Below, one piece after another: positions 1-64,000 of a stretch of DNA of 64,000 nt (the stretch's first letter is position 1; the number at the start of each line of letters is the position of its first letter). The stretch is from contig OX387610.1 of NCBI GenBank assembly GCA_947568835.1, positions 16,849,050 to 16,913,049 on the forward strand, written 5' to 3'. The notes beneath the pieces are model-generated. The model did not search any database, was not told the origin of the DNA, and saw nothing but the letters and a program-made list of their open reading frames with translations. Position numbers and translations under genes: made by a program. This DNA is from Protonemura montana (taxonomy: Eukaryota > Arthropoda > Insecta > Plecoptera > Nemouridae).

Positions 1-1650
1 ACGCTAGCTAGACGCTCCAGACACTCTGCCTTGCTACCCAGAATCTCCAGACACTCTGCCTCGCTAGCCAGGCGCTCCAGACACTCTGCCTCGCTACCCA
101 GACGCTTCAGACTATCTGCCACGCTAGCCAGTGGCTCCAGACACTCTGCCACGCTAGCTAGACACTCCAGGCACTCTGCCTCGCTACTTAGACGCTCCAG
201 AAACTCTGCCTCGCTAGCCAGGCACTCCAGACACTCTGGCTCGCTACCCAGACGCTCCAGACACTCTGCCTCCCTAGCCAGCCGATCCAGACACTCTGCC
301 ATGCTAGCCAGAGATTTCAGACACTCTGCTACGCTAGCTAGACTCTCCAGACACTCTGCCACGCTAGCTAGACGATCCAGACACTCTGCCTTGCTACCCA
401 GACCCTCCAGACACTCTGCCTCGCTAAACAGGCGCTCCAGTCACTCTGCCATGCTAGCCAGACGCTCCAGACTTTCTGCCACGCTAGCCAGACGCTCAAG
501 ACACTATGCCACGCAAGCTTGACGCTCCAGACACTCTGCCTTGCTACCCAGACCCTCCAGACACTCTGCCTCGCTAGCCAGGCGCTCCAGACACTCTGCC
601 TCGCTACCCAGACGCTCCAGACACTCTGCCTCGCTAGCCAGGCGCTCCAGACACTCTGCCTCGCTTCCTAGACGCTTCAGACTATCTGCCACGCTAGCCA
701 ATGGCTCCAGACACTTTGCCACGCTAGCTAGACGCTCCAGGTACTCTGCCTCGCTACTTAGACGCTCCAGACACTTTTCCTCACTAACAAAGCATTCCAG
801 ACACTCTGGTTCGCTACTCAGACGCTCCAGACACTCTGCCTCGCTAGCTAGCCGCTTTAGACACTCTGCCACGCTAGCTAGACGCTCCAGACACTCTGCA
901 ACGCTAGCCAGACGCTCCAGACACTTTAATTCGCTACCCAGACGTTCCAGACACTTTGCCTCGCTCCCCAGACGCTCCAGACACTCTGCCTCGCTAGCCA
1001 GGTGCTTCAGAAGCTCTGCCTCGCTAGCCAGGCGCTCCAGACACTCTGCCATGCTAGCCAGACGCTCCAGACTATCTGCTACGCTAGCCAGAGGCTCCAG
1101 ACACTCTGCCACGCTAGCTAGACGCTCCAGACACTCTGCCTTGCTACTTAGACGCTCCAGAAACTCTGCTGCGCTAGCCAGGCACTCCAGACACTCTGGC
1201 TCTCTACCCAGACGCTCCAGACACTCTGCCTCCCTAGCCAGCCGCTCCAGACACTCAGCCATGCTAGCCAGAGATTTCAGACACTCTGCTACGCTAGCTA
1301 GACGCTCCAGACACTCTGCCACGCTAGCTAGACGCTCCAGACACTCTGCCTCGCTACCCAGACGCTCCAGACTATCTGCCACGCTAGCCAGTGGCTCCAG
1401 ACACTCTGCCACGATAGCTAGACGCTCCAGATACTCTGCATCGCTAGCCAGGCGCTCCAGACAATCTGCCTCGCTACCCAGACTCTCCAGACACTCTGCC
1501 ACGCTAGCTAGACGATCCAGAAACTCTGCCTTGCTACCCAGACCCTCCAGACACTCTGCCTCGCTAAACAGGCGCTCCAGTCACTCTGCCATGCTAGCCA
1601 GACGCTCCAGACTTTCTGCCACGCTAGCCAGACGCTCAAGACACTATGCC
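1..1650. repeat. Partial left flank of the HOR arrays
   Basis: Positions 1-150 resemble 14251-14400, and 151-510 resemble 16321-16680, so this edge looks like the end of a 4,200-type unit. It closes with the AAGCTT-bearing monomer at 511-540. The next 1,140 bp (511-1650) are a longer relative of the 1,020-bp part of the 3,750-bp unit (compare 2581-3600), with about four extra monomers, including the GCCGCTTTAG type at 849-858. No gene is present. Confidence 0.8.
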
Positions 1651-4600
1651 ACGCAAGCTTGACGCTCCAGACACTCTGCCTTGCTACCCAGACCCTCCAG
1701 ACACTCTGCCTCGCTAGCCAGGCGCTCCAGACACTCTGCCTCGCTACCCAGACGCTCCAGACACTCTGCCTCGCTAGCCAGGTGCTCCAGACACTCTGCC
1801 TCGCTACCTAGACGCTTCAGACTATCTGCCACGCTAGCCAATGGCTCCAGACACTCTGCCTCGCTATCCAGACGCTCCAGACACTCTGCCTCGCTAGCCA
1901 GCCTCTCCAGACACTCTGCAATGCTAGCCAGACGCTCCAGACTTTCTGCCACGCTAGCCAGAGGTTGAAGACACTCTGCTACGCTAGCTAGACGCTTCAG
2001 ACACTCTGCGTCGCTAGCTTGACGCTCCAGACACTCTGCCTCACTACCCAGACGCTCCAGACTATCTGCCACGCTAGCCAGTGGCTCCAGGTACTCTGCC
2101 ACGATAGCTAGACGCTCCAGACTCTCTGCCTCGCTAGCCAGGCGCTCCAGACAATCTGCCTCGCTACCCAGACGCTCTAGACACTCTGCCTCGCTAGCCA
2201 GCCGCTCCAGACACTCTGCCATGCTAGCCAGACTCTCCAGACTTTCCGCCACGCTAGCCAGACGCTCAAGACACTATGCCACGCTAGCTTGACGCTCCAG
2301 ACACTCTGCCTTGCTACCCAGACCCTCCAGACACTCTGCCTCGCTAGCCAGCCGATCCAGACACTCTGCCATGCTAGCCAGAGATTTCAGACAGTCTGCT
2401 ACGCTAGCTAGACTTTCCAGACACTCTGCCACGCTAGCTAGACGATCCAGACACTCTGCCTTGCTACCCAGACCCTCCAGACACTCTGCCTCGCTAAACA
2501 GGCGCTCCAGTCACTCTGCCATGCTAGCCAGACGCTCCAGACTTTCTGCCACGCTAGCCAGACGCTCAAGACACTATGCCACGCAAGCTTAACGCTCCAG
2601 ACACTCTGCCTTGCTACCCAGACCCTCCAGACACTCTGCCTCGCTAGCCAGGCGCTCCAGACACTCTGCCTCGCTACCCAGACGCTCCAGACACTCTGCC
2701 TCGCTAGCCAGGCGCTCCAGACACTCTGCCTCGCTACCTAGACGCTTCAGACTATCTGCCACGCTAGCCAATGGCTCCAGACACTCTGCCACGCTAGCTA
2801 GACGCTCCAGGTACTCTGCCTCGCTACTTAGACGCTCCAGACACTCTTCCTCACTAACAAAGCATTCCAGACACTCTGGTTCGCTACTCAGACGCTCCAG
2901 ACACTCTGCCTCGCTAGCTAGACGCTCCAGACACTCTGCCACGCTAGCCAGACGCTCCAGACACTCTGATTCGCTACCCAGACGTTCCAGACACTTTGCC
3001 TCGCTCCCCAGACGCTCCAGACACTCTGCCTCGCTAGCCAGGTGCTTCAGAAGCTCTGCCTCGCTAGCCAGGCGCTCCAGACACTCTGCCATGCTAGCCA
3101 GACGCTCCAGACTATCTGCTACGCTAGCCAGAGGCTCCAGACACTCTGCCACGCTAGCTAGACGCTCCAGACACTCTGCCTTGCTACTTAGACGCTCCAG
3201 AAACTCTGCTGCGCTAGCCAGGCACTCCAGACACTCTGGCTCTCTACCCAGACGCTCCAGACACTCTGCCTCCCTAGCCAGCCGCTCCAGACACTCAGCC
3301 ATGCTAGCCAGAGATTTCAGACACTCTGCTACGCTAGCTAGACGCTCCAGACACTCTGCCACGCTAGCTAGACGCTCCAGACACTCTGCCTCGCTACCCA
3401 GACGCTCCAGACTATCTGCCACGCTAGCCAGTGGCTCCAGACACTCTGCCACGCTAGCTAGACGATCCAGACACTCTGCCTTGCTACCCAGACCCTCCAG
3501 ACACTCTGCCTCGCTAAACAGGCGCTCCATTCACTCTGCCATGCTAGCCAGACGCTCCAGACTTTCTGCCACGCTAGCCAGACGCTCAAGACACTATGCC
3601 ACGCAAGCTTGACGCTCCAGACACTCTGCCTTGCTACCCAGACCCTCCAGACACTCTGCCTCGCTAGCCAGGCGCTCCAGACACTCTGCCTCGCTACCCA
3701 GACGCTCCAGACACTCTGCCTCGCTAGCCAGGTGCTCCAGACACTCTGCCTCGCTACCTAGACGCTTCAGACTATCTGCCACGCTAGCCAATGGCTCCAG
3801 ACACTCTGCCACGCTAGCTAGACGCTCCAGGTACTCTGCCTCGCTACTTAGACGCTCCAGACACTCTTCCTCACTAACAAAGCATTCCAGACACTCTGGT
3901 TCGCTACTCACACGCTCCAGACACTCTGCCTCGCTAGCTTGCCGCTTTAGACACTCTGCCACGCTAGCTAGACGCTCCAGACACTCTGCAACGCTAGCCA
4001 GACGCTCCAGACACTTTGATTCGCTACCCAGACGTTCCAGACACTTTGCCTCGCTCCCCAGACGCTCCAGACACTCTGCCTCGCTAGCCAGGCGCTTTAG
4101 AAGCTCTGCCTCGCTAGCCAGGCGCTCCAGACACTCTGCCATGCTAGCCAGACGCTCCAGACTATCTGCTACGCTAGCCAGAGGCTCCAGACACTCTGCC
4201 ACGCTAGCCAGGCGCTCCAGACACTCTGCCTCGCTACCCAGACGCTTCAGACTATCTGCCACGCTAGCCAGTGGCTCCAGACACTCTGCCACGCTAGCTA
4301 GACGCTCCAGGCACTCTGGCTCGCTACTTAGACGCTCCAGAATTTCTGCCTCGCTAGCCAGGCACTTCAGACACTCTGGCTCGCTACCCAGACGCTCCAG
4401 ACACTCTGCCTCCCTAGCCAGCCGCTCCAGACACTCTGCTATGCTAGCCAGAGATTTCAGACACTCTGCTACGCTAGCTAGACGCTCCAGACACTCTGCC
4501 ACGCTAGCTAGACGCTCCAGGCACTCTGCCTTGCTACTTTGACCCTCCAGACACTCTGCCTCACTAGCCAGGCGCTCCAGACACTCTGCCTTGCTACCCA

Positions 4601-5400
4601 GACGCTCAAGACTATCTGCCACGCTAGCCAGTGGCTCCAGAATATTTGCCACGATAGCCAGAGGCTCCAGACACTCTGCCACGCTAGCTAGACGCTCCAG
4701 ACACTCTGCATCGCTAGCCAGGCGCTCCAGACACTCTGCCTCGCTATCCAGACGCTCCAGACACTCTGCCTCGCTAGCCAGCCTCTCCAGACACTCTGCA
4801 ATGCTAGCCAGACGCTCCAGACTTTCTGCCACGCTAGCTAGAGGTTGAAGACACTCTGCTACGCTAGCTAGACGCTCCAGACACTCTGCGTCGCTAGCTT
4901 GACGCTCCAGACACTCTGCCTCACTACCCAGACGCTCCAGACTATCTGCCACGCTAGCCAGTGGCTCCAGGTACTCTGCCACGATAGCTAGACGCTCCAG
5001 ACACTCTGCCTCGCTAGCCAGGCGCTCCAGACACTCTGCCATGCTAGCCAGACTCTCCAGACTTTCTGCCACGCTAGCCAGACGCTCAAGACACTATGCC
5101 ACGCTAGCTTGACGCTCCAGACACTCTGCCTTGCTACCCAGACCCTCCAGACACTCTGCCTCGCTAGCCAGCCGATCCAGACACTCTGCCATGCTAGCCA
5201 GAGATTTCAGACACTCTGCTACGCTAGCTAGACTTTCCAGACACTCTGCCACGCAAGCTAGACGATCCAGACACTCTGCCTTGCTACCCAGACCCTCCAG
5301 ACACTCTGCCTCGCTAAACAGGCGCTCCAGTCACTCTGCCATGCTAGCCAGACGCTCCAGACTTTCTGCCACGCTAGCCAGACGCTCAAGACACTATGCC
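1651..5400. repeat. 3,750-bp higher-order repeat, copy 1
   Basis: This is a block of 125 monomers repeated in tandem as 5401-9150 and 9151-12900. It splits into parts of 930 bp (1651-2580), 1,020 bp (2581-3600) and 1,800 bp (3601-5400). Each part opens at the AAGCTT-bearing monomer, and each is followed by the same leader monomers (TTGCTACCCAGACCCTCC, then TCGCTAGCCAGGCGCTCC). The three parts are themselves related, so the unit grew by older internal duplication. Against copy 2 I found about six substitutions and no indel. Confidence 0.95.
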
Positions 5401-8400
5401 ACGCAAGCTTGACGCTCCAGACACTCTGCCTTGCTACCCAGACCCTCCAGACACTCTGCCTCGCTAGCCAGGCGCTCCAGACACTCTGCCTCGCTACCCA
5501 GACGCTCCAGACACTCTGCCTCGCTAGCCAGGTGCTCCAGACACTCTGCCTCGCTACCTAGACGCTTCAGACTATCTGCCACGCTAGCCAATGGCTCCAG
5601 ACACTCTGCCTCGCTATCCAGACGCTCCAGACACTCTGCCTCGCTAGCCAGCCTCTCCAGACACTCTGCAATGCTAGCCAGACGCTCCAGACTTTCTGCC
5701 ACGCTAGCCAGAGGTTGAAGACACTCTGCTACGCTAGCTAGACGCTTCAGACACTCTGCGTCGCTAGCTTGACGCTCCAGACACTCTGCCTCACTACCCA
5801 GACGCTCCAGACTATCTGCCACGCTAGCCAGTGGCTCCAGGTACTCTGCCACGATAGCTAGACGCTCCAGACACTCTGCCTCGCTAGCCAGGCGCTCCAG
5901 ACAATCTGCCTCGCTACCCAGACGCTCTAGACACTCTGCCTCGCTAGCCAGCCGCTCCAGACACTCTGCCATGCTAGCCAGACTCTCCAGACTTTCCGCC
6001 ACGCTAGCCAGACGCTCAAGACACTATGCCACGCTAGCTTGACGCTCCAGACACTCTGCCTTGCTACCCAGACCCTCCAGACACTCTGCCTCGCTAGCCA
6101 GCCGATCCAGACACTCTGCCATGCTAGCCAGAGATTTCAGACAGTCTGCTACGCTAGCTAGACTTTCCAGACACTCTGCCACGCTAGCTAGACGATCCAG
6201 ACACTCTGCCTTGCTACCCAGACCCTCCAGACACTCTGCCTCGCTAAACAGGCGCTCCAGTCACTCTGCCATGCTAGCCAGACGCTCCAGACTTTCTGCC
6301 ACGCTAGCCAGACGCTCAAGACACTATGCCACGCAAGCTTAACGCTCCAGACACTCTGCCTTGCTACCCAGACCCTCCAGACACTCTGCCTCGCTAGCCA
6401 GGCGCTCCAGACACTCTGCCTCGCTACCCAGACGCTCCAGACACTCTGCCTCGCTAGCCAGGCGCTCCAGACACTCTGCCTCGCTACCTAGACGCTTCAG
6501 ACTATCTGCCACGCTAGCCAATGGCTCCAGACACTCTGCCACGCTAGCTAGACGCTCCAGGTACTCTGCCTCGCTACTTAGACGCTCCAGACACTCTTCC
6601 TCACTAACAAAGCATTCCAGACACTCTGGTTCGCTACTCAGACGCTCCAGACACTCTGCCTCGCTAGCTAGACGCTCCAGACACTCTGCCACGCTAGCCA
6701 GACGCTCCAGACACTCTGATTCGCTACCCAGACGTTCCAGACACTTTGCCTCGCTCCCCAGACGCTCCAGACACTCTGCCTCGCTAGCCAGGTGCTTCAG
6801 AAGCTCTGCCTCGCTAGCCAGGCGCTCCAGACACTCTGCCATGCTAGCCAGACGCTCCAGACTATCTGCTACGCTAGCCAGAGGCTCCAGACACTCTGCC
6901 ACGCTAGCTAGACGCTCCAGACACTCTGCCTTGCTACTTAGACGCTCCAGAAACTCTGCTGCGCTAGCCAGGCACTCCAGACACTCTGGCTCTCTACCCA
7001 GACGCTCCAGACACTCTGCCTCCCTAGCCAGCCGCTCCAGACACTCAGCCATGCTAGCCAGAGATTTCAGACATTTTGCTACGCTAGCTAGACGCTCCAG
7101 ACACTCTGCCACGCTAGCTAGACGCTCCAGACACTCTGCCTCGCTACCCAGACGCTCCAGACTATCTGCCACGCTAGCCAGTGGCTCCAGACACTCTGCC
7201 ACGCTAGCTAGACGATCCAGACACTCTGCCTTGCTACCCAGACCCTCCAGACACTCTGCCTCGCTAAACAGGCGCTCCATTCACTCTGCCATGCTAGCCA
7301 GACGCTCCAGACTTTCTGCCACGCTAGCTAGACGCTCAAGACACTATGCCACGCAAGCTTGACGCTCCAGACACTCTGCCTTGCTACCCAGACCCTCCAG
7401 ACACTCTGCCTCGCTAGCCAGGCGCTCCAGACACTCTGCCTCGCTACCCAGACGCTCCAGACACTCTGCCTCGCTAGCCAGGTGCTCCAGACACTCTGCC
7501 TCGCTACCTAGACGCTTCAGACTATCTGCCACGCTAGCCAATGGCTCCAGACACTCTGCCACGCTAGCTAGACGCTCCAGGTACTCTGCCTCGCTACTTA
7601 GACGCTCCAGACACTCTTCCTCACTAACAAAGCATTCCAGACACTCTGGTTCGCTACTCACACGCTCCAGACACTCTGCCTCGCTAGCTTGCCGCTTTAG
7701 ACACTCTGCCACGCTAGCTAGACGCTCCAGACACTCTGCAACGCTAGCCAGACGCTCCAGACACTTTGATTCGCTACCCAGACGTTCCAGACACTTTGCC
7801 TCGCTCCCCAGACGCTCCAGACACTCTGCCTCGCTAGCCAGGCGCTTTAGAAGCTCTGCCTCGCTAGCCAGGCGCTCCAGACACTCTGCCATGCTAGCCA
7901 GACGCTCCAGACTATCTGCTACACTAGCCAGAGGCTCCAGACACTCTGCCACGCTAGCCAGGCGCTCCAGACACTCTGCCTCGCTACCCAGACGCTTCAG
8001 ACTATCTGCCACGCTAGCCAGTGGCTCCAGACACTCTGCCACGCTAGCTAGACGCTCCAGGCACTCTGGCTCGCTACTTAGACGCTCCAGAATTTCTGCC
8101 TCGCTAGCCAGGCACTTCAGACACTCTGGCTCGCTACCCAGACGCTCCAGACACTCTGCCTCCCTAGCCAGCCGCTCCAGACACTCTGCTATGCTAGCCA
8201 GAGATTTCAGACACTCTGCTACGCTAGCTAGACGCTCCAGACACTCTGCCACGCTAGCTAGACGCTCCAGGCACTCTGCCTTGCTACTTTGACCCTCCAG
8301 ACACTCTGCCTCACTAGCCAGGCGCTCCAGACACTCTGCCTTGCTACCCAGACGCTCAAGACTATCTGCCACGCTAGCCAGTGGCTCCAGAATATTTGCC

Positions 8401-9150
8401 ACGATAGCCAGAGGCTCCAGACACTCTGCCACGCTAGCTAGACGCTCCAGACACTCTGCATCGCTAGCCAGGCGCTCCAGACACTCTGCCTCGCTATCCA
8501 GACGCTCCAGACACTCTGCCTCGCTAGCCAGCCTCTCCAGACACTCTGCAATGCTAGCCAGACGCTCCAGACTTTCTGCCACGCTAGCTAGAGGTTGAAG
8601 ACACTCTGCTACGCTAGCTAGACGCTCCAGACACTCTGCGTCGCTAGCTTGACGCTCCAGACACTCTGCCTCACTACCCAGACGCTCCAGACTATCTGCC
8701 ACGCTAGCCAGTGGCTCCAGGTACTCTGCCACGATAGCTAGACGCTCCAGACACTCTGCCTCGCTAGCCAGGCTCTCCAGACACTCTGCCATGCTAGCCA
8801 GACTCTCCAGACTTTCTGCCACGCTAGCCAGACGCTCAAGACACTATGCCACGCTAGCTTGACGCTCCAGACACTCTGCCTTGCTACCCAGACCCTCCAG
8901 ACACTCTGCCTCGCTAGCCAGCCGATCCAGACACTCTGCCATGCTAGCCAGAGATTTCAGACACTCTGCTACGCTAGCTAGACTTTCCAGACACTCTGCC
9001 ACGCAAGCTAGACGATCCAGACACTCTGCCTTGCTACCCAGACCCTCCAGACACTCTGCCTCGCTAAACAGGCGCTCCAGTCACTCTGCCATGCTAGCCA
9101 GACGCTCCAGACTTTCTGCCACGCTAGCCAGACGCTCAAGACACTATGCC
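5401..9150. repeat. 3,750-bp higher-order repeat, copy 2
   Basis: This copy matches 1651-5400 monomer for monomer. Differences I spotted include the monomer end at 7071-7080 (ACATTTTGCT for ACACTCTGCT), one base near 7330, ACACTAGCCA at 7921 and GGCTCTCC near 8771. At about 99.8% identity over 3.75 kb, the duplication or homogenisation is recent. Confidence 0.95.
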
Positions 9151-12100
9151 ACGCAAGCTTGACGCTCCAGACACTCTGCCTTGCTACCCAGACCCTCCAG
9201 ACACTCTGCCTCGCTAGCCAGGCGCTCCAGACACTCTGCCTCGCTACCCAGACGCTCCAGACACTCTGCCTCGCTAGCCAGGTGCTCCAGACACTCTGCC
9301 TCGCTACCTAGACGCTTCAGACTATCTGCCACGCTAGCCAATGGCTCCAGACACTCTGCCTCGCTATCCAGACGCTCCAGACACTCTGCCTCGCTAGCCA
9401 GCCTCTCCAGACACTCTGCAATGCTAGCCAGACGCTCCAGACTTTCTGCCACGCTAGCCAGAGGTTGAAGACACTCTGCTACGCTAGCTAGACGCTTCAG
9501 ACACTCTGCGTCGCTAGCTTGACGCTCCAGACACTCTGCCTCACTACCCAGACGCTCCAGACTATCTGCCACGCTAGCCAGTGGCTCCAGGTACTCTGCC
9601 ACGATAGCTAGACGCTCCAGACACTCTGCCTCGCTAGCCAGGCGCTCCAGACAATCTGCCTCGCTACCCAGACGCTCTAGACACTCTGCCTCGCTAGCCA
9701 GCCGCTCCAGACACTCTGCCATGCTAGCCAGACTCTCCAGACTTTCCGCCACGCTAGCCAGACGCTCAAGACACTATGCCACGCTAGCTTGACGCTCCAG
9801 ACACTCTGCCTTGCTACCCAGACCCTCCAGACACTCTGCCTCGCTAGCCAGCCGATCCAGACACTCTGCCATGCTAGCCAGAGATTTCAGACAGTCTGCT
9901 ACGCTAGCTAGACTTTCCAGACACTCTGCCACGCTAGCTAGACGATCCAGACACTCTGCCTTGCTACCCAGACCCTCCAGACACTCTGCCTCGCTAAACA
10001 GGCGCTCCAGTCACTCTGCCATGCTAGCCAGACGCTCCAGACTTTCTGCCACGCTAGCCAGACGCTCAAGACACTATGCCACGCAAGCTTAACGCTCCAG
10101 ACACTCTGCCTTGCTACCCAGACCCTCCAGACACTCTGCCTCGCTAGCCAGGCGCTCCAGACACTCTGCCTCGCTACCCAGACGCTCCAGACACTCTGCC
10201 TCGCTAGCCAGGCGCTCCAGACACTCTGCCTCGCTACCTAGACGCTTCAGACTATCTGCCACGCTAGCCAATGGCTCCAGACACTCTGCCACGCTAGCTA
10301 GACGCTCCAGGTACTCTGCCTCGCTACTTAGACGCTCCAGACACTCTTCCTCACTAACAAAGCATTCCAGACACTCTGGTTCGCTACTCAGACGCTCCAG
10401 ACACTCTGCCTCGCTAGCTAGACGCTCCAGACACTCTGCCACGCTAGCCAGACGCTCCAGACACTCTGATTCGCTACCCAGACGTTCCAGACACTTTGCC
10501 TCGCTCCCCAGACGCTCCAGACACTCTGCCTCGCTAGCCAGGTGCTTCAGAAGCTCTGCCTCGCTAGCCAGGCGCTCCAGACACTCTGCCATGCTAGCCA
10601 GACGCTCCAGACTATCTGCTACGCTAGCCAGAGGCTCCAGACACTCTGCCACGCTAGCTAGACGCTCCAGACACTCTGCCTTGCTACTTAGACGCTCCAG
10701 AAACTCTGCTGCGCTAGCCAGGCACTCCAGACACTCTGGCTCTCTACCCAGACGCTCCAGACACTCTGCCTCGCTAGCCAGCCGCTCCAGACACTCTGCC
10801 ATGCTAGCCAGACTCTCCAGACTTTCCGCCACGCTAGCTAGACGCTCCAGACACTCTGCCACGCTAGCTAGACGCTCCAGACACTCTGCCTCGCTACCCA
10901 GACGCTCCAGACTATCTGCCACGCTAGCCAGTGGCTCCAGACACTCTGCCACGCTAGCTAGACGATCCAGACACTCTGCCTTGCTACCCAGACCCTCCAG
11001 ACACTCTGCCTCGCTAAACAGGCGCTCCATTCACTCTGCCATGCTAGCCAGACGCTCCAGACTTTCTGCCACGCTAGCCAGACGCTCAAGACACTATGCC
11101 ACGCAAGCTTGACGCTCCAGACACTCTGCCTTGCTACCCAGACCCTCCAGACACTCTGCCTCGCTAGCCAGGCGCTCCAGACACTCTGCCTCGCTACCCA
11201 GACGCTCCAGACACTCTGCCTCGCTAGCCAGGTGCTCCAGACACTCTGCCTCGCTACCTAGACGCTTCAGACTATCTGCCACGCTAGCCAATGGCTCCAG
11301 ACACTCTGCCACGCTAGCTAGACGCTCCAGGTACTCTGCCTCGCTACTTAGACGCTCCAGACACTCTTCCTCACTAACAAAGCATTCCAGACACTCTGGT
11401 TCGCTACTCACACGCTCCAGACACTCTGCCTCGCTAGCTTGCCGCTTTAGACACTCTGCCACGCTAGCTAGACGCTCCAGACACTCTGCAACGCTAGCCA
11501 GACGCTCCAGACACTTTGATTCGCTACCCAGACGTTCCAGACACTTTGCCTCGCTCCCCAGACGCTCCAGACACTCTGCCTCGCTAGCCAGGCGCTTTAG
11601 AAGCTCTGCCTCGCTAGCCAGGCGCTCCAGACACTCTGCCATGCTAGCCAGACGCTCCAGACTATCTGCTACGCTAGCCAGAGGCTCCAGACACTCTGCC
11701 ACGCTAGCCAGGCGCTCCAGACACTCTGCCTCGCTACCCAGACGCTTCAGACTATCTGCCACGCTAGCCAGTGGCTCCAGACACTCTGCCACGCTAGCTA
11801 GACGCTCCAGGCACTCTGGCTCGCTACTTAGACGCTCCAGAATTTCTGCCTCGCTAGCCAGGCACTTCAGACACTCTGGCTCGCTACCCAGACGCTCCAG
11901 ACACTCTGCCTCCCTAGCCAGCCGCTCCAGACACTCTGCTATGCTAGCCAGAGATTTCAGACACTCTGCTACGCTAGCTAGACGCTCCAGACACTCTGCC
12001 ACGCTAGCTAGACGCTCCAGGCACTCTGCCTTGCTACTTTGACCCTCCAGACACTCTGCCTCACTAGCCAGGCGCTCCAGACACTCTGCCTTGCTACCCA

Positions 12101-12900
12101 GACGCTCAAGACTATCTGCCACGCTAGCCAGTGGCTCCAGAATATTTGCCACGATAGCCAGAGGCTCCAGACACTCTGCCACGCTAGCTAGACGCTCCAG
12201 ACACTCTGCATCGCTAGCCAGGCGCTCCAGACACTCTGCCTCGCTATCCAGACGCTCCAGACACTCTGCCTCGCTAGCCAGCCTCTCCAGACACTCTGCA
12301 ATGCTAGCCAGACGCTCCAGACTTTCTGCCACGCTAGCTAGAGGATGAAGACACTCTGCTACGCTAGCTAGACGCTCCAGAATCTCTGCGTCGCTAGCTT
12401 GACGCTCCAGACACTCTGCCTCACTACCCAGACGCTCCAGACTATCTGCCACGCTAGCCAGTGGCTCCAGGTACTCTGCCACGATAGCTAGACGCTCCAG
12501 ACACTCTGCCTCGCTAGCCAGGCGCTCCAGACACTCTGCCATGCTAGCCAGACTCTCCAGACTTTCTGCCACGCTAGCCAGACGCTCAAGACACTATGCC
12601 ACGCTAGCTTGACGCTCCAGACACTCTGCCTTGCTACCCAGACCCTCCAGACACTCTGCCTCGCTAGCCAGCCGATCCAGACACTCTGCCATGCTAGCCA
12701 GAGATTTCAGACACTCTGCTACGCTAGCTAGACTTTCCAGACACTCTGCCACGCAAGCTAGACGATCCAGACACTCTGCCTTGCTACCCAGACCCTCCAG
12801 ACACTCTGCCTCGCTAAACAGGCGCTCCAGTCACTCTGCCATGCTAGCCAGACGCTCCAGACTTTCTGCCACGCTAGCCAGACGCTCAAGACACTATGCC
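9151..12900. repeat. 3,750-bp higher-order repeat, copy 3
   Basis: This is the third complete copy. It differs from copies 1 and 2 mainly by a cluster at 10771-10830, where about ten substitutions turn the local monomers into the type found at 9691-9750. It also carries a few isolated changes (near 12345 and 12381). Instead of another full unit, it is followed at 12901 by sequence matching the 1,020-bp part (10081 onward), so the 930-bp part is skipped. Confidence 0.94.
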
Positions 12901-13740
12901 ACGCAAGCTTAACGCTCCAGACACTCTGCCTTGCTACCCAGACCCTCCAGACACTCTGCCTCGCTAGCCAGGCGCTCCAGACACTCTGCCTCGCTACCCA
13001 GACGCTCCAGACACTCTGCCTCGCTAGCCAGGCGCTCCAGACACTCTGCCTCGCTACCTAGACGCTTCAGACTATCTGCCACGCTAGCCAATGGCTCCAG
13101 ACACTCTGCCACGCTAGCTAGACGCTCCAGGTACTCTGCCTCGCTACTTAGACGCTCCAGACACTCTTCCTCACTAACAAAGCATTCCAGACACTCTGGT
13201 TCGCTACTCAGACGCTCCAGACACTCTGCCTCGCTAGCTAGCCGCTTTAGACACTCTGCTTCGCTAGCTAGACGCTCCAGACACTCTGCCACGCTAGCCA
13301 GACGCTCCAGACACTCTGATTCGCTACCCAGACGTTCCAGACACTTTGCCTCGCTCCCCAGACGCTCCAGACACTCTGCCTCGCTAGCCAGGTGCTTCAG
13401 AAGCTCTGCCTCGCTAGCCAGGCGCTCCAGACACTCTGCCATGCTAGCCAGACGCTCCAGACTATCTGCTACGCTAGCCAGAGGCTCCAGACACTCTGCC
13501 ACGCAAGCTAGACGCTCCAGACACTCTGCCTTGCTACTTAGACGCTCCAGAAACTCTGCTGCGCTAGCCAGGCACTCCAGACACTCTGGCGCTCTACCCA
13601 GACGCTCCAGACACTCTGCCTCCCTAGCCAGCCGCTCCAGACACTCAGCCATGCTAGCCAGAGATTTCAGACACTCTGCTACGCTAGCTAGACGCTCCAG
13701 ACACTCTGCCACGCTAGCTAGACGCTCCAGACACTCTGCC
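12901..13740. repeat. Partial 3,750-type unit at the junction to the 4,200-bp array
   Basis: This stretch follows 10081-10920 closely (offset 2,820) but has an extra monomer around 13261-13290, which brings in the GCCGCTTTAG variant just before it. From 13741 the sequence follows the 4,200-bp unit (compare 17941). It is the transition between two HOR families. Confidence 0.85.
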
Positions 13741-40800: not shown

Positions 40801-40960
40801 ACGCTAGCAAGACGCTCCAGACACTCAGCCACGCTCGCCAGACGTTCCAGACACTCTGCCTCGCTATTCAGACGCTCCAGTTACTCTACCATGCTAGCTA
40901 GACGCTCCAGACACACTGCCTCGCTAGCCAGGCGCTCCAGACACTCTGCCTCGCTACCCA
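37801..40960. repeat. Mosaic segment duplicated 15.9 kb away, copy 1
   Basis: This segment joins second-repertoire monomers (37801-38070) to sequence like the 3,750 and 4,200 units (about 38071-39790, with AAGCTT at 38855), then back again. It recurs at 53746-56905 at an offset of 15,945 bp. That offset is 30 x 532 minus the 15 bases lost in three small deletions between the copies. I found about four or five substitutions in 3.16 kb, for example near 39136, 39510 and 40395. Confidence 0.92.
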
Positions 40961-42720: not shown

Positions 42721-42738
42721 ACGCTAGCCAGCTCTGCT
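42721..42738. repeat. Truncated 18-bp monomer
   Basis: The monomer beginning ACGCTAGCCAG runs straight into CTCTGCT, so 12 bp of the usual middle (the CGCTCCAGACA region) are missing. The register shifts from position 1 to position 19 modulo 30. This is the only clearly incomplete monomer in the window. Confidence 0.93.
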
Positions 42739-48316: not shown

Positions 48317-48600
48317 TCGCTAGCTTGACACTCCAGTCACTCTGCCATTCTATTCAGACGCTCCAGACTATCTGCCACGCTTGCCAGACGCTCCAGAAAC
48401 TCTGCCACGCTAGCCAGACGATCCAGACACTTTGCCTCGCTACCCAGACGCTCCAGACACTCTGCCTCAATAGCAAGTCGCTTCAGACACTCTGCCTCGC
48501 TAGCTAGACGCTTCATACACTCTACCATGCTAGTCAGACGCTCTAGACTTTCTGCCTCGCTAGAAAGACGCTCCTGACACACTGCCTCGCTACCCAGACG
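48317..48600. repeat. Dispersed block, copy 4, first part
   Basis: This begins with the same GCTTGACACTCCAGTC marker. The rest of this block copy continues into the 1,230-bp tandem duplication that starts at about 48601, so the block's 3' part is present twice (48.6 and 49.8 kb). Confidence 0.85.
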
Positions 48601-51060: not shown

Positions 51061-53745
51061 CTCCAGACACTCTGCTACGCTAGCTAGACGCTCCAGACAC
51101 TCTGCCTTGCTACCCAGACGCTCCAGACACTCTGCCATTCTAGTCAGACGCTCTAGACTATCTGCCACGCTAGCCAGACGCTCCAGACACTTTGCCCCGC
51201 TACCCAGACGCTCCAGACAATCTGCTTCGCTAGCTAGATGGTCCAGGCACTCTGCCATGCTAGTCAGACGCTTCAGACTTTCTGCCTTACTAGCAAGACG
51301 CTCAAGACACTCTGCCATTCTAGTCAGACGCTCCAGACTACCTGCTACGCTAGCCAGAGGCTCCAGACACTCTGCTTTGCTAGCCAGACGCTCCAGGTAC
51401 TCTGCCTTGCTACCCAGACAATCCAGACTCTCTGCCATTCTAGTCAGACGCTCCAGACACTCTGCCTCGCTAGCCAGGCGCTCCAGACACTCTACCTCGC
51501 CACCCAGACGCTCCAGGCACTCTGCCTCGCCAGCAAGGCACTTCAGACACTCTGTTTTGCTAGCTAGACGGTCCAGACACTCAGCCATGCTAGCTAGACG
51601 CTCCAGGTACTCTGCCTTGCTACCCAGACGCTCCAGACACTCTGCCATTCTAGTCAGACGCTCCAGACTATCTGCCACGCTAGCCAGAGGCTCCAGACAC
51701 TCTGCCACGCTAGCCATACGCTGCAGACACTCAGCTATGCTAGCCACACGCTCCAGACTTTCTGCCACGCTAGCCAGACGCTCAAAACACTCGGCCACGC
51801 TAGCCAGACGCTCCAGACACTCTGATTCGCTACCCAGACGCTCCAGACACTTTGCCTCGCTACCCAGACACACCAGACACTCTGCCTCGCTAGCTAGACG
51901 CTCTAGACACTCTGCCTTGCTACCCAGACCCTCCAGACACTCTGCCTTGCTAGCCAGGTGCTCCAGACACTCTGCCTCGCTACCCAGACGCTCCAGACCA
52001 TCTGCCACGCTAGCCAGTGGCTCCAGACTATCTGCCACGCTAGCCAGAGGCTGCAGACACTCTGCCACGCTAGCTAGACGCTCCAGACACTCTGCCATGC
52101 TAGCCAGACGCTCCAGACACTCTGATTCGCTACTTCGACGTTCCAGACACTTTGCCTTGCTACTGAGACGCTCCAGACACTCTGCCTCGCTAGCCAGGCG
52201 CTTCAGAAGCTCTGCCCCGCTAGTTAGGCTCTCCAGACACTCTGCCATGCCAGCCAGACGCTTCAGTTTATCTGCCACGCTAGCCAGAGGTTCCAGACAC
52301 TCTGCCACGCTAGCTAGACGCTCCAGACACTCTGCTATTCTAGTCAGATGCTCGAGACTATCTGCCACGCTAGCCAGAGGCACCAGACACTCTGCCACGC
52401 TAGCAAGACACTCCAGACACTCTGTCTTGCTAGCCAGGCGCTCCAGACACTCTGCCACGCTAGCCAGAGGTTCCAGACACTCTGCCACGCTAGCTAGACG
52501 CTCCAGACACTCTGCTATTCTAGTCAGATGCTCGAGACTATCTGCCACGCTAGCCAGAGGCACCAGACACTCTGCCACGCTAGCAAGACACTCCAGACAC
52601 TCTGTCTTGCTAGCCAGGCGCTCCAGACACTCTGCCATGCTAGCCAGACGCTATAGACTATATGCCACGCTAGCCATAGGCTCCAGACACTCTGCTACGC
52701 TAGCTAGACGCTCCAGACACTCTGCCTTGCTACCCAGACGCTCCAGACACTCTGCCATTCTAGTCAGACGCTCTAGACTATCTGCCACGCTATCCAGACG
52801 CTCCAGACACTCTGCCACGCTAGCCAGACTCTCTAGACACTTTGCCCCGCTACCCAGACGCTCCAGACAATCTGCTTCGCTAGCTAGATGGTCCAGGCAC
52901 TCTGCCATGCTAGTCAGACGCTTCAGACTTTCTGCCTTACTAGCAAGACGCTCAAGACACTCTGCCATTCTAGTCAGACGCTCCAGACTACCTGCTACGC
53001 TAGCCAGAGGCTCCAGACACTCTGCTTTGCTAGCCAGACGCTCCAGGTACTCTGCCTTGCTACCCAGACAATCCAGACTCTCTGCCATTCTAGTCAGACG
53101 CTCCAGACACTCTGCCTCGCTAGCCAGGCGCTCCAGACACTCTACCTTGCCACCGAGACGCTCCAGGCACTCTGCCTCGCCAGCAAGGCACTTCAGACAC
53201 TCTGTTTTGCTAGCTAGACGGTCCAGACACTCAGCCATGCTAGCCAGACGCTCCAGGTACTCTGCCTTGCTACCCAGACGCTCCAGACACTCTGCCATTC
53301 TAGTCAGACGCTCCAGACTATCTGCCACGCTAGCCAGAGGCTCCAGACACTCTGCCACGCTAGCCATACGCTGCAGACACTCAGCTATGCTAGCCACACG
53401 CTCCAGACTTTCTGCCACGCTAGCCAGACGCTCGAGACACTCTGCCACGCTAGCCAGACGCTCCAGACACTCTGATTCGCTACCCAGACGCTCCAGACAC
53501 TTTGCCTCGCTAGCCAGCCGCTTTATACACTCTGCCTTGCTAGCCAGACGCTCCAGACACTCTGCCCACTAGCCAGACGCTCCAGACACTCTTAGTCGCT
53601 ACCCAGACGTTCCAGACACTTTGCCTTGCTACCCAAACGCTCCAGACACTCTGCCTCGCTAGCCAGGCGCTTCAGAAGCTCTGCCTCGCTAGCGAGGCGC
53701 TCCAGACACTCTGCCATACTAGCCAGACGCTCCAGAGACTCTGCC
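51061..53745. repeat. Paired second-repertoire segments with nested duplication
   Basis: 51017 and 52637 both begin the monomer with CGCTATAGACTATATGCC and start two related segments. The second has one monomer more (near 52817), so the distance becomes 1,650 bp further along (51238 pairs with 52888). An exact 180-bp duplication lies between them. At about 53566 one base is missing (CTGCCCACTAGCC), shifting the register. Confidence 0.87.
52277..52636. repeat. Exact 180-bp tandem duplication
   Basis: Six monomers (52277-52456) are repeated immediately (52457-52636) with no difference that I can see. Rare monomers such as the one with GAGGCACCAGACAC and the one with GATGCTCGAGAC appear in both copies. 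Elsewhere this monomer run occurs only once per locus, so this is a very young event. Confidence 0.95.
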
Positions 53746-56700: not shown

Positions 56701-56905
56701 TCCAGACTATCCGCCACGCTAGCCATAGGCTCCAGACATTCGGTCACGCTAGCAAGACGCTCCAGACACTCAGCCACGCTCGCCAGACGTTCCAGACACT
56801 CTGCCTCGCTATTCAGACGCTCCAGTTACTCTACCATGCTAGCTAGACGCTCCAGACACACTGCCTCGCTAGCCAGGCGCTCCAGACACTCTGCCTCGCT
56901 ACCCA
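53746..56905. repeat. Mosaic segment duplicated 15.9 kb away, copy 2
   Basis: This repeats 37801-40960, including the AAGCTT-bearing monomer (54796) and the ATGATAACCAG monomer (56686). Identity is lost on both sides: before 53746 the flank is of the 41.8 kb type, and after 56905 it changes to ACCCAGACACACCAG monomers. The flanks of the two copies differ, so this was an insertion or conversion of a long tract, not a plain tandem step. Confidence 0.92.
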
Positions 56906-59235
56906 GACACACCAGACACTCTGCCTCGCTAGCTAGACGCTCCAGACACTCTGCCTTGCTACCCAGACCCTCCAGACACTCTGCCTTGCTACCCAGACCC
57001 TCCAGACATTCTGCCTCGCTAGCCAGGTGCTCCAGACACTCTGCCTCGCTACCCAGACGCTCCAGACTATCTGCCACGCTAGCCAGTGGCTCCAGACTAT
57101 CTGCCACGCTAGCCAGAGGCTGCAGACACTCTGCCACGCTAGCTAGACGCTCCAGACACTCTGCCATGCTAGCTAGACGCTCCAGACACTCTTAGTCGCT
57201 ACCCAGACGTTCCAGACACTTTGCCTTGCTACCCAAACGCTCCAGACACTCTGCCTCGCTAGCCAGGCGCTTCAGAAGCTCTGCCTCGCTAGCGAGGCGC
57301 TCCAGACACTCTGCCATACTAGCCAGACGCTCCAGAGACTCTGCCTCGCTAGCCAGGCGCTTCAGACACTCTGCCATGCTAGCCAGACGCTATAGACTAT
57401 ATGCCACGCTAGCCATAGGCTCCAGACACTCTGCTACGCTAGCTAGACGCTCCAGACACTCTGCCTTGCTACCCAGACGCTCCAGACACTCTGCCATTCT
57501 AGTCAGACGCTCTAGACTATCTGCCACGCTAGCCAGACGCTCCAGACACTCTGCCACGCTAGCCAGACTCTCTAGACACTTTGCCCCGCTACCCAGACGC
57601 TCCAGACAATCTGCTTCGCTAGCTAGATGGTCCAGGCACTCTGCCATGCTAGTCAGACGCTTCAGACTTTCTGCCTTACTAGCAAGACGCTCAAGACACT
57701 CTGCCATTCTAGTCAGACGCTCCAGACTACCTGCTACGCTAGCCAGAGGCTCCAGACACTCTGCTTTGCTAGCCAGACGCTCCAGGTACTCTGCCTTGCT
57801 ACCCAGACAATCCAGACTCTCTGCCATTCTAGTCAGACGCTCCAGACACTCTGCCTCGCTAGCCAGGCGCTCCAGACACTCTACCTCGCCACCCAGACGC
57901 TCCAGGCACTCTGCCTCGCCAGCAAGGCACTTCAGACACTCTGTTTTGCTAGCTAGACGGTCCAGACACTCAGCCATGCTAGCTAGACGCTCCAGGTACT
58001 CTGCCTTGCTACCCAGACGCTCCAGACACTCTGCCATTCTAGTCAGACGCTCCAGACTATCTGCCACGCTAGCCAGAGGCTCCAGACACTCTGCCACGCT
58101 AGCCATACGCTGCAGACACTCAGCTATGCTAGCCACACGCTCCAGACTTTCTGCCACGCTAGCCAGACGCTCGAGACACTCTGCCACGCTAGCCAGACGC
58201 TCCAGACACTCTGATTCGCTACCCAGACGCTCCAGACACTTTGCCTCGCTACCCAGACACACCAGACACTCTGCCTTGCTACCCAGACCCTCCAGACACT
58301 CTGCCTTGCTAGCCAGGTGCTCCAGACACTCTGCCTCGCTACCCAGACGCTCCAGACTATCTGCCACGCTAGCCAGTGGCTCCAGACTTTCTGACACGCT
58401 AGCTAGACGCTCCAGACACTCTGCCATTCTAGTCAGACGCTCCAGACTATCTGCCACGCTAGCCAGAGGCTCCAGACACTCTGCCACGCTAGCCATACGC
58501 TGCAGACACTCAGCTATGCTAGCCACACGCTCCAGACTTTCTGCCACGCTAGCCAGACGCTCGAGACACTCTGCCACGCTAGCCAGACGCTCCAGACACT
58601 CTGATTCGCTACCCAGACGCTTCAGACACTTTGCCTCGCTACCCAGACACACCAGACACTCTGCCTTGCTACCCAGACCCTCCAGACACTCTGCCTTGCT
58701 AGCCAGGTGCTCCAGACACTCTGCCTCGCTACCCAGACGCTCCAGACTATCTGCCACGCTAGCCAGAGGCTGCAGACACTCTGCCACGCTAGCTAGACGC
58801 TCCAGACACTCTGCCATGCTAGCCAGACGCTCCAGACACTCTGATTCGCTACTTCGACGTTCCAGACACTTTGCCTTGCTACTGAGACGCTCCAGACACT
58901 CTGCCTCGCTAGCCAGGCGCTTCAGAAGCTCTGCCCCGCTAGTAAGGCTCTCCAGACACTCGGCCATGCCAGCCAGACGCTTCAGTTTATCTGCCACGCT
59001 AGCAAGAGGTTCCAGACACTCTGCCACGCTAGCTAGACGCTCCAGACACTCTGCTATTCTAGTCAGATGCTCCAGACTATCTGCCACGCTAGCCAGAGGC
59101 TCCAGACACTCTGCCACGCTAGCAAGACACTCCAGACACTCTGTCTTGCTAGCCAGGCGCTCCAGACACTCTGCCACGCTAGCTAGACGCTCCAGACACT
59201 CTGCCTTGCTACCCAGACGCTCCAGACACTCTGCT
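56906..59235. repeat. 2,610-type relative with 390-bp tandem duplication
   Basis: Positions 57181-58700 recur at 62639-64000, where the window ends (offset 5,458 bp). 58036-58425 is repeated from 58426 to about 58770 (13 monomers, offset 390). The spacer type with CTTCGACG and TTCAGTTTATCTGCC follows at 58.85-59.2 kb. Confidence 0.87.
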
Positions 59236-61244
59236 TCGCTAGTTTGACACTCCAGTCACTCTGCCATTCTATTCAGACGCTCCAGACTATCTGCCACGCT
59301 TGCCAGACGCTCCAGAAACTCTGCCACGCTAGCCAGACGATCCAGACACTTTGCCTCGCTACCCAGACGCTCCAGACACTCTGCCTCAATAGCCAGTCGC
59401 TTCAGACACTCTGCCTCGCTAGCTAGACGCTTCATACACTCTACCATGCTAGTCAGACGCTCTAGACTTTCTGCCTCGCTAGAAAGACGCTCCTGACACA
59501 CTGCCTCGCTACCCAGACGCTCCAGACACTATGCCTCGCTACCCAGACGCTCCAGAGACTCTGCCTCGCTAGCCAGACGCTCAAGACACTCTGCCTCGCT
59601 AGCTAGACGCTCTAGACACTCTGCCATGCTAACCAGACGCTCCAGACTATCCGCCACGCTAGCCATAGGCTCCAGACACTCTGCCACGCTAGCAAGACGC
59701 TCCAGACACTCAGCCACGCTCGCCAGACGCTCCAGACACTCTGCCTCGCTATTCAGACGCTCCAGTTACTCTACCATGCTAGCTTGACGCTCCAGACACT
59801 CTGCCTCGCTAGCCAGGCGCTCCAGACACTCTGCATCGCTACCCAGACGCTCCAGACACTCTGCTACGCTAGCTAGACGCTCCAGACACTCTGTCTTGCT
59901 ACCCAGACGCTCCAGACTCTCTGTCTTGCTACCCAGGCGCTCCAGACACTCTGCCTCGCTACCCAGACGCTCCAGACACTCTGCTACGATAGCTAGACGC
60001 TCCAGACACTCTGATTTGCTACCCAGACGCTCCAGACACTTTGCCTCGCTACCTAGACACACCAGACACTCTGCTTCGCTAGCTAGACGCTCCAGACACT
60101 CCGCCTTGCTACCCAGACAATCCAGACTCTCTGCCATTCTAGTCAGACGCTCCAGACACTCTGCCTCGCTAGCCAGGCGCTCCAGACACTCTACCTAGCC
60201 ACCCAGACGCTCCAGGCACTCTGCCTCGCCAGCAAGGCACTTCAGACACTCTGTTTTGCTAGCTAGACGGTCCAGACACTCAGCTATGCTAGCCAGACGC
60301 TCCAGGTACTCTGCCTTGCTACCCAGACGCTCCAGACACTCTGCCATTCTAGTCAGACGCTCCAGACTATCTGCCACGCTAGCCAGAGGCTCCAGACACT
60401 CTGCCACGCTAGCCATACGCTGCAGACACTCAGCTATGCTAGCCACACGCTTCAGACTTTCTGCCATGCTAGCCAGACGCTCGAGACACCCTGCCACGCT
60501 AGCCAGACGCTCAGACACTCTGATTCGCTACCCAGACGCTCCAGAAAATTTGCCTCGCTACCCAGACACACCAGACACTCTGCCTCGCTAGCTAGACGCT
60601 CCAGACACTCTGCCTTGCTACCCAGACCCTCCAGACACTCTGCCTTGCTACCCAGACCCTCCAGACATTCTGCCTCGCTAGCCAGGTGCTCCAGACACTC
60701 TGCCTCGCTACCCAGACGCTCCAGACTATCTGCCACGCTAGCCAGTGGCTCCAGACTATCTGCCACGCTAGCCAGAGGCTGCAGACACTCTGCCACGCTA
60801 GCTAGACGCTCCAGACACTCTGCCATGCTAGCCAGACGCTCCAGACACTCTGATTCGCTACTTCGACGTTCCAGACACTTTGCCTTGCTACTGAGACACT
60901 CCAGACACTCTGCCTCGCTAGCCAGGCGCTTAAGAAGCTCTGCCCCGCTAGTTAGGCTCTCCAGACACTCTGCCATGCCAGCCAGACGCTTCAGTTTATC
61001 TGCCACGCTAGCCAGAGGTTCCAGACACTCTGCCACGCTAGCTAGACGCTCCAGACACTCTGCTATTCTAGTCAGATGCTCCAGACTATCTGCCACGCTA
61101 GCCAGAGGCTCCAGACACTCTGCCACGCTAGCAAGACACTCCAGACACTCTGTCTTGCTAGCCAGGCGCTCCAGACACTCTGCCACGCTAGCTAGACGCT
61201 CCAGACACTCTGCCTTGCTACCCAGACGCTCCAGACACTCTGCT
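59236..61244. repeat. Dispersed ~830-bp block, copy 5, with spacer
   Basis: The block covers about 59236-60060, opening with GCTAGTTTGACACTCC (one base changed from the other copies). The following 1.2 kb includes a monomer short by one base at about 60511 (GACGCTCAGACAC). This same deletion is seen again 1,799 bp later. The next block begins 2,009 bp downstream. Confidence 0.88.
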
Positions 61245-62638
61245 TCGCTAGCTTGACACTCCAGTCACTCTGCCATTCTATTCAGACGCTCCAGACTATC
61301 TGCCACGCTTGCCAGACGCTCCAGAAACTCTGCCACGCTAGCCAGACGATCCAGACACTTTGCCTCGCTACCCAGACGCTCCAGACACTCTGCCTCAATA
61401 GCCAGTCGCTTCAGACACTCTGCCTCGCTAGCTAGACGCTTCATACACTCTACCATGCTAGTCAGACGCTCTAGACTTTCTGCCTCGCTAGAAAGACGCT
61501 CCTGACACTCTGCCTCGCTACCCAGACGCTCCAGACACTATGCCTCGCTACCCAGACGCTCCAGAGACTCTGCCTCGCTAGCCAGACGCTCAAGACACTC
61601 TGCCTCGCTAGCTAGACGCTCTAGACACTCTGCCATGCTAACCAGACGCTCCAGACTATCCGCCACGCTAGCCATAGGCTCCAGACACTCTGCCACGCTA
61701 GCAAGACGCTCCAGACACTCAGCCAAGCTCGCCAGACGCTCCAGACACTCTGCCTCGCTATTCAGACGCTCCAGTTACTCTACCATGCTAGCTAGACGCT
61801 CCAGACACTCTGCCTCGCTAGCCAGGCGCTCCAGACACTCTGCATCGCTACCCAGACGCTCCAGACACTCTGCTACGCTAGCTAGACGCTCCAGACACTC
61901 TGTCTTGCTACCCAGACGCTCCAGACTCTCTGTCTTGCTACCCAGGCGCTCCAGACACTCTGCCTCGCTACCCAGACGCTCCAGACACTCTGCTACGCTA
62001 GCTACACGCTCCAGACACTCTGATTCGCTACCCAGACGCTCCAGACACTTTGCCTCGCTACTTAGACACACCAGGCACTCTGCCTCGCCAGCAAGGCACT
62101 TCAGACACTCTGTTTGGCTAGCTAGACGGTCCAGACACTCTGCCATTCTAGTCAGACGCTCCAGACTATCTGCCACGCTAGCCAGAGGCTCCAGACACTC
62201 TGCCACGCTAGCCATACGCTGCAGACACTCAGCTATGCTAGCCACACGCTCCAGACTTTCTGCCACGCTAGCCAGACGCTCGAGACACCCTGCCACGCTA
62301 GCCAGACGCTCAGACACTCTGATTCGCTACCCAGACTCTCCAGACAATTTGCCTCGCTACCCAGACACACCAGACACTCTGCCTCGCTAGCTAGACGCTC
62401 CAGACACTCTGCCTTGCTACCCAGACCCTCCAGACACTCTGCCTTGCTACCCAGACCCTCCAGACATTCTGCCTCGCTAGCCAGGTGCTCCAGACACTCT
62501 GCCTCGCTACCCAGACGCTCCAGACTATCTGCCACGCTAGCCAGTGGCTCCAGACTATCTGCCACGCTAGCCAGAGGCTGCAGACACTCTGCCACGCTAG
62601 CTAGACGCTCCAGACACTCTGCCATGCTAGCTAGACGC
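61245..62638. repeat. Dispersed ~830-bp block, copy 6, with spacer
   Basis: The block covers about 61245-62070. The part at 62135-62638 matches 60336-60839 and shares its one-base deletion (near 62310) and its GAGACACCCTGCC variant, so both come from one ancestral segment. Confidence 0.88.
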
Positions 62639-64000
62639 TCCAGACACTCTTAGTCGCTACCCAGACGTTCCAGACACTTTGCCTTGCTACCCAAACGCTC
62701 CAGACACTCTGCCTCGCTAGCCAGGCGCTTCAGAAGCTCTGCCTCGCTAGCGAGGCGCTCCAGACACTCTGCCATACTAGCCAGACGCTCCAGAGACTCT
62801 GCCTCGCTAGCCAGGCGCTTCAGACACTCTGCCATGCTAGCCAGACGCTATAGACTATATGCCACGCTAGCCATAGGCTCCAGACACTCTGCTACGCTAG
62901 CTAGACGCTCCAGACACTCTGCCTTGCTACCCAGACGCTCCAGACACTCTGCCATTCTAGTCAGACGCTCTAGACTATCTGCCACGCTAGCCAGACGCTC
63001 CAGACACTCTGCCACGCTAGCCAGACTCTCTAGACACTTTGCCCCGCTACCCAGACGCTCCAGACAATCTGCTTCGCTAGCTAGATGGTCCAGGCACTCT
63101 GCCATGCTAGTCAGACGCTTCAGACTTTCTGCCTTACTAGCAAGACGCTCAAGACACTCTGCCATTCTAGTCAGACGCTCCAGACTACCTGCTACGCTAG
63201 CCAGAGGCTCCAGACACTCTGCTTTGCTAGCCAGACGCTCCAGGTACTCTGCCTTGCTACCCAGACAATCCAGACTCTCTGCCATTCTAGTCAGACGCTC
63301 CAGACACTCTGCCTCGCTAGCCAGGCGCTCCAGACACTCTACCTCGCCACCCAGACGCTCCAGGCACTCTGCCTCGCCAGCAAGGCACTTCAGACACTCT
63401 GTTTTGCTAGCTAGACGGTCCAGACACTCAGCCATGCTAGCCAGACGCTCCAGGTACTCTGCCTTGCTACCCAGACGCTCCAGACACTCTGCCATTCTAG
63501 TCAGACGCTCCAGACTATCTGCCACGCTAGCCAGAGGCTCCAGACACTCTGCCACGCTAGCCATACGCTGCAGACACTCAGCTATGCTAGCCACACGCTC
63601 CAGACTTTCTGCCACGCTAGCCAGACGCTCGAGACACTCTGCCACGCTAGCCAGACGCTCCAGACACTCTGATTCGCTACCCAGACGCTCCAGACACTTT
63701 GCCTCGCTACCCAGACACACCAGACACTCTGCCTTGCTACCCAGACCCTCCAGACACTCTGCCTTGCTAGCCAGGTGCTCCAGACACTCTGCCTCGCTAC
63801 CCAGACGCTCCAGACTATCTGCCACGCTAGCCAGTGGCTCCAGACTTTCTGACACGCTAGCTAGACGCTCCAGACACTCTGCCATTCTAGTCAGACGCTC
63901 CAGACTATCTGCCACGCTAGCCAGAGGCTCCAGACACTCTGCCACGCTAGCCATACGCTGCAGACACTCAGCTATGCTAGCCACACGCTCCAGACTTTCT
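62639..64000. repeat. Truncated copy of the 57.2 kb segment at the window edge
   Basis: This follows 57181-58542 at an offset of 5,458 bp, including the ACTCTTAG marker and the ATTCTAGTCAG monomers. It is cut by the end of the window, so the satellite continues beyond it. Confidence 0.92.

Follow-up and report, generated by a model that had tools for sequence, protein, structure and literature searches.

How a stretch of 64,000 bases came to consist of a single 30-bp unit from end to end, and what kind of element it represents, are the questions raised by bases 16,849,050–16,913,049 of contig C13 (17,828,049 bases in total), which belongs to a genome assembly of 258.5 Mb in 34 contigs. This whole stretch is called the window here. 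COX1 and the order of the mitochondrial genes, named from their translations, point to an arthropod, probably an insect, as the source. The reading that we favor, with a probability of about 0.8, is that of a non-coding satellite located near one end of several chromosomes, presumably heterochromatic, which has grown by the copying of blocks in register, with transfer between chromosomes.

The first element of this reading is the monomer itself. TRF, a check of the kind that a preliminary description of this DNA had proposed, returns a single array at positions 2–63995, with a period of 30, 2,132.7 copies, 80% matches, and 0% indels. Cyclic profile alignment resolves the window into 2,133 monomers with only five length changes in 64,000 bases (−12 at 42732, −2 at 46088, and −1 at each of 53567, 60512, and 62311), none of which falls in the first 42.7 kb. 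The two methods bear out the earlier claim that every line of the sequence repeats one 30-bp unit. The 2,133 monomers comprise 346 distinct sequences, and adjacent monomers (offset 30) are ~80% identical. The exact column-by-column consensus has no copy within the window, because the common monomer types each bear marks of their own. A 90-base piece folded no better than shuffled sequence on either strand, with 162 of 200 and 136 of 200 shuffles folding at least as well.

The rate of length change in the window is 0.078 per kb, compared with a range of 0–2.5 per kb across 15 further stretches of satellite that were sampled. Selection against indels was considered as the cause and dropped in view of this range. 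Given the values in the other stretches, the low rate looks more like a matter of ancestry, within a single young domain, than like a general rule.

A period that is a multiple of 3 also raises the idea of a giant protein-coding repeat with a 10-residue unit, and several features are in line with it: open frames reach 1,403 codons (34651–38859, + strand), length changes number merely five, and the ratio of non-synonymous to synonymous changes, per possible change, is 0.74 in one of the two consensus-open frames (0.97 in the other). However, the longest frame lies inside the range obtained from 50 shuffles of the monomers (845–2,286 codons, mean 1,265), and stop codons are not depleted in the consensus-open frames (115 observed vs. 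108 expected, and 79 vs. 67; 2,128 of the 2,133 monomers used). In addition, four of the five length changes disrupt the frame, and a Pfam search of two long open frames gave no match. The ratio of 0.74 is a slight lean toward constraint, to which we give no weight against the stop counts. A coding repeat keeps its frame and avoids stops, and the window does neither; a coding origin was rejected on the stop counts, the shuffles, the frame breaks, and the Pfam result for the two frames, and is now extremely unlikely. The idea goes back to the array edge on the small contig C6, where an open 10-residue pattern is seen. A search of the window against Rfam gave no match at gathering score. Together with the stop counts, the lengths of open frames in shuffles, and the Pfam search of two frames, this agrees with the view of the window as free of genes and with the non-coding nature of satellite DNA.

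The second element is the larger-scale order of the monomers. The 30-bp register is nearly unbroken, and blocks of 6 to ~140 monomers are copied in register (Table 1).

Table 1. Repeat features of the window, in window coordinates.
Feature	Position	Strand	Evidence
30-bp satellite array, consensus CGCTAGCCAGACGCTCCAGACACTCTGCCT	1..64000	+	TRF and profile alignment; 2,133 monomers in a single orientation
3,750-bp higher-order unit (125 monomers), ~3.1 copies	1453..13167	+	Runs at offsets 3750 and 7500
~2.7 copies of a 4,200-bp higher-order unit (140 monomers), ending at 24833, followed on the right by a 2,070-bp re-copy	13663..26201	+	Runs at offsets 4200, 8400, 2070, 6270, and 10470
Nested 2,610/4,020/6,630-bp copies	26430..37213	+	Runs at offsets 2610, 4020, and 6630
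3.3-kb block with second copy 15,945 bp downstream at 53693–57026	37748..41081	+	Offset 15945, 99.1% over run
1,230-bp higher-order unit, ~2.1 copies	48566..51137	+	Offset 1230, 97.8% over run; interior 5/742 differences
180-bp tandem doublet	52271..52630	+	Perfect 180-bp match at offset 180
Block 56849–58542 with copy at 62307–64000 (offset 5458; copy cut by window end)	within 56849..64000	+	Offset run
Block 58703–60103 with copy at 60712–62112 (offset 2009)	within 56849..64000	+	Offset run
390-bp doublet near 58015	within 56849..64000	+	Perfect over 180 bp; segments of 360 bp at >=95% cover 515 bases

Head-to-tail copies occur at offsets of 3750, 4200, 2610, 1230, 180, and 390, and distant copies at 6630, 15945, 4020, and 5458. 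The offsets of 1,230, 2,610, 3,750, 4,200, 6,630, and 15,945 bp, all named in the preliminary description, were recovered as runs of 1.3 to 8 kb with 97.8–99.5% identity. The tandem units of 180 and 390 bp that it also named are present, but solely as short local doublets, near 52,271 and 58,015; at offset 180, no 360-bp segment exceeds 89.7% identity. Further offsets, beyond those listed earlier, include 1170, 1020, 930, 330, 4020, 2070, 5458, 2009, and 14067. The principal offsets are divisible by 30, and the exceptions examined (15945, 5458, 14067, 2009, and 16076) are accounted for by the sum of the length changes between the respective copies. For example, 15945 equals 15 modulo 30 because the −12, −2, and −1 changes fall between the two copies.

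The run ends are frayed, and once this had been noticed, 300 bp were trimmed at either end of 10 selected runs. The interiors that remain are 99.3–99.95% identical in nine of the 10 pairs and 98.7% identical in the tenth, vs. ~80% between neighboring monomers, as in higher-order repeats; several pairs overlap one another and do not count as independent comparisons. The offset 3750 run (1453–9417 against +3750, 99.4% identity) has 22 differences in 7,365 bp of interior, 10 of them within a patch at 7023–7080, and the offset 4200 run (13663–20633, 99.5%) has nine in 6,371 bp. Differences in the interiors amount to 1/2,146 at offset 2610, 2/2,459 at offset 4020, 5/3,241 at offset 6630 (run 26430–30270), and 5/2,734 at offset 15945, and to 4/1,539, 1/1,094, and 13/1,011 in three further runs. 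At offsets below 20 kb that are multiples of 30, 113,050 segments of 300 bp match at >=96% in the real sequence, vs. none in any of five shuffles of monomer order. These runs and this control support nested higher-order repeats on a 30-bp monomer, as first described. Nearly all of the window takes part: 62,032 of its 64,000 bases lie within a 300-bp stretch that has another ungapped copy at >=99% in the window.

Gene conversion patches were also considered as a general feature and rejected, since the clustering of differences across eight block pairs was mostly due to the frayed run ends. After trimming, the 10 pairs retain 15 gaps of <=30 bp between differences, vs. 7.3 expected, and nine of the 15 come from the patch at 7023–7080, which is kept as the sole candidate conversion event.

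As for mechanism, the blocks may have arisen by repeated in-register unequal exchange, between sister chromatids misaligned in their 30-bp registers, or alternatively by break-induced replication guided by the 30-bp homology. Recent transfer between chromosomes could have occurred through ectopic exchange of chromosome ends that carry the array in like orientation. We infer these processes from the pattern of copies only, and rolling-circle insertion of extrachromosomal circles would be expected to leave a very similar one. Unequal crossover, break-induced replication, and rolling-circle reinsertion are all described for satellites in general in excerpts of a published account (PMC8122249). 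Because the register is disturbed only five times over 64 kb, the past copying of blocks can be followed nearly base by base, and the window offers an unusually clear example of how a satellite grows and is shared between chromosomes.

The array extends well beyond the window. On C13, none of five sampled places at 16.50–16.76 Mb lies in it, its left edge falls within 16,770,001–16,770,500, and all places sampled between 16.770 Mb and 17.828 Mb, where the contig ends, are satellite (~1.06 Mb, by samples); the long, unbroken head-to-tail array expected of satellite DNA is thus found over the whole window and, by sampling, over this distance. Read by eye, the left edge adjoins another tandem repeat, with a period of ~60 bp. 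Extents on other contigs come from samples of 300–10,000 bases together with exact-match patterns. Arrays were located in this way at ~29.157 Mb to the contig end at 29.805 Mb on C2, from ~19.43 to at least 20.73 Mb on C5, and, in reverse orientation, at ~0.135–0.40 Mb on C15. Past the C5 array lies ~200 kb that was non-satellite at all three places sampled. Among the small contigs, C6 (1.10 Mb) is wholly satellite in three of five sampled stretches and partly so in the other two, and related arrays occupy the start of C8 and ~0.04–0.11 Mb of C9. All related arrays together are estimated from samples, not from a count, at ~4 Mb.

The exact consensus unit has 1,962 copies in the genome outside the window (1,567 on the + and 395 on the − strand; the reversed control has none), and the first 100 of these, the matches listed, are all on C2. 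A 50-base pattern has 94 exact matches, of which 33 are on C2, 52 on C5, one on C6, seven on C15, and a single one on C18. Eight of them are on the reverse strand, namely the seven on C15 and one on C2. The placed arrays are in + orientation near the right ends of C2, C5, and C13 and in − orientation near the left end of C15. Polarity relative to the chromosome end is therefore uniform, except for one inverted match of 33 on C2.

Near-identical blocks are found on C5, another chromosome-sized contig. Two C5 loci (L002 and L003) are 99.8% identical to window positions 1–2100, vs. 91% for a third (L005) over the same length. Positions 1–600 and 18001–18600 were each searched against the genome, with ~40 of ~1,600 candidates scored in both cases. 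Among the matches listed, those at >=98% fall only at 16.83–16.87 Mb of C13 and 19.82–19.93 Mb of C5. Listed matches of ~90% to 18001–18600 include C13 at 17.34–17.36 Mb, C5 at 20.36–20.40 Mb, C6 at 0.72 Mb, and others nearer by, and listed matches of 94–95% to 1–600 lie mainly at 17.77–17.80 Mb of C13, 20.50–20.71 Mb of C5, 1.05–1.09 Mb of C6, and 0.05–0.09 Mb of C9. Among these listed matches, C13 and C5 carry the three groups in the same order, and C6 shows this order for the last two. The blocks shared by C5 and C13 make exchange between non-homologous chromosome ends datable.

Copy numbers and the sharing between C5 and C13 could partly reflect assembly error. That part of the structure is artefactual, with copies over-expanded or mis-joined and shared blocks misplaced, is suggested by identities of >=99.7% in eight of the 10 block interiors, by the end of the C13, C2, and C6 assemblies inside the array, and by the same satellite on small contigs. 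However, the copies bear private differences and occur with many offsets and lengths, and the sampled satellite stretches contain no N bases, which together make this improbable.

The stop of the C13 and C2 assemblies within the array is also what would be seen if the array formed the very end of the chromosome and, as a long tandem repeat, stood in for telomerase repeats. Yet among the 24 ends examined on 12 large contigs, five carry TTAGG- or TTTGG-type repeats (three of the 24 read N), and the C5 array is followed by non-satellite DNA at all three places sampled. A terminal role is very improbable.

A third possibility is that the satellite would be the functional, CENH3-binding centromere DNA of acrocentric chromosomes, with the higher-order repeats forming an active core comparable to that of alpha satellite. 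The presence of large arrays toward one end of C2, C5, C13, and C15, their nearly uniform polarity, a telomere-type repeat at the opposite end of C13, and the status of the window as a young homogenised domain with few length changes are all consistent with this. On the other hand, the 50-base pattern has no match on C1, C3, C4, C11, C12, C14, or C16 (C13, which certainly carries the array, is missed as well), other tandem repeats occupy some other contig ends, and the C5 array gives way to DNA that was non-satellite at the three places sampled. The unmatched contigs and the other end repeats make a single universal centromere satellite look unlikely, and we regard the centromeric reading, judged from sequence features, as possible but unlikely. 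In human acrocentric short arms, long tracts are exchanged between non-homologous ends on an ongoing basis. A more specific and more doubtful proposal is that the arrays near non-homologous chromosome ends might share their domain order because those ends still exchange long tracts, and that the window domain might be the active core of the C13 centromere; if this is true, a minisatellite-sized unit suffices for an alpha-satellite-like centromere. For the non-coding, block-copied satellite that we favor, the heterochromatic state is assumed, and a biological role, if any, would be structural, in heterochromatin that is pericentromeric or lies at chromosome ends, and a role at the kinetochore would be possible.

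It remains to place this satellite among known systems. The statement that the family is not recognised stands: full-text searches with 12–14-base pieces of the unit returned only papers unrelated by title, and among 20 of 55 papers on insect higher-order satellites, judged by title and the opening of the abstract, none matches this family. Like the higher-order repeats of primate alpha satellite, as excerpted (PMC8122249), the window combines diverged monomers with near-identical blocks. However, alpha satellite has a ~171-bp monomer, CENP-B boxes in part, and a centromere role, whereas the present array has a 30-bp period and only a possible centromere role. According to excerpts on Tribolium madens (PMC13081366), TmSat1 and TmSat2 are likewise insect satellites that arose from a shorter progenitor through higher-order repetition, but this progenitor is ~110 bp long with strong inverted symmetry, while the window monomers all point in one direction.

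The closest parallel in unit size is satellite I of bovids and cervids. As excerpted, the Neotropical deer satellite I has a monomer of 910–913 bp in two species, made of 18–21 copies of a 31-bp subrepeat, and subrepeats at equivalent positions in different species resemble each other more than do those inside one monomer (PMC7835801); a title cited in the same source indicates 31-bp subrepeats in bovine satellite 1 as well. The view that such depth of structure on a minisatellite-sized unit is unfamiliar is weakened by these accounts. Compared by structure as described there, both systems have a minisatellite-sized subunit, position-specific variants, and a larger unit built from them. Since higher-order structure on 31-bp subrepeats is already known, the window satellite belongs to a known kind and is no new kind of element. 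It is a well-formed member of that kind, from a family that is probably undescribed, and unlike bovid and cervid satellite I, described with a single monomer of ~0.9 kb, it carries units from 180 bp to several kb that coexist and nest.

Within the satellite array, higher-order copies of 3,750 bp are near-identical to one another outside a 58-bp patch, in which ten differences between them are found. The version carried by the other 3,750-bp copy occurs four times in the window and that of the patch itself only once, and this stretch is a candidate conversion patch. At a smaller scale, the 30-bp consensus of the window contains a 9-bp direct doublet (CCAGACGCT / CCAGACACT; 8/9 positions equal, by eye), which hints that the unit may derive from a still shorter ancestor.

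The same genome harbors a second satellite, with a 12-bp, CATGTCCTGCCC-like unit, which occupies the sampled pieces of contigs C17, C21, C24, and C25 and was also sampled on C18. Near the start of the small contig C6, the 30-bp satellite is followed by a reverse-strand frame, which we take from its appearance on three-frame reading to be transposase-like. Elsewhere, a stretch of C4 differs at only seven of 4,338 bases from the mitochondrial contig (C34, locus L024), and a second COX1-like piece was found on C4; this is either a very recent mitochondrial insertion or else a mis-join.

Features identified in the window and on other contigs
Feature	Location	Remark
Candidate conversion patch	window:7023-7080	
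9-bp doublet	30-bp consensus, columns 7-24	
Mitochondrial stretch	C4:5759425-5763762 (L023)	
COX1-like piece	C4:5776811-5777755	
30-bp satellite, then reverse-strand frame	C6:5001-15000 (L041)	right part
12-bp satellite	C18, about 3.0-3.1 Mb	samples
(TTTGG)n end	C13 left (L009), C1 right (L044), C11 right (L088)	first group, three ends
(TTAGG)n end	C12 right (L089), C16 left (L056)	second group, two ends

Two kinds of telomere-type repeats were detected when the last 300 bases were sampled at 24 ends of 12 large contigs (3/24 read N): (TTTGG)n at 3/24 ends and (TTAGG)n at 2/24. Among the papers listed by a literature search, and in passages from telomere papers, no insect TTTGG telomere was found. 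At the left end of C16, both motifs are present, with TTAGG outermost and a few TTTGG copies internal to it.
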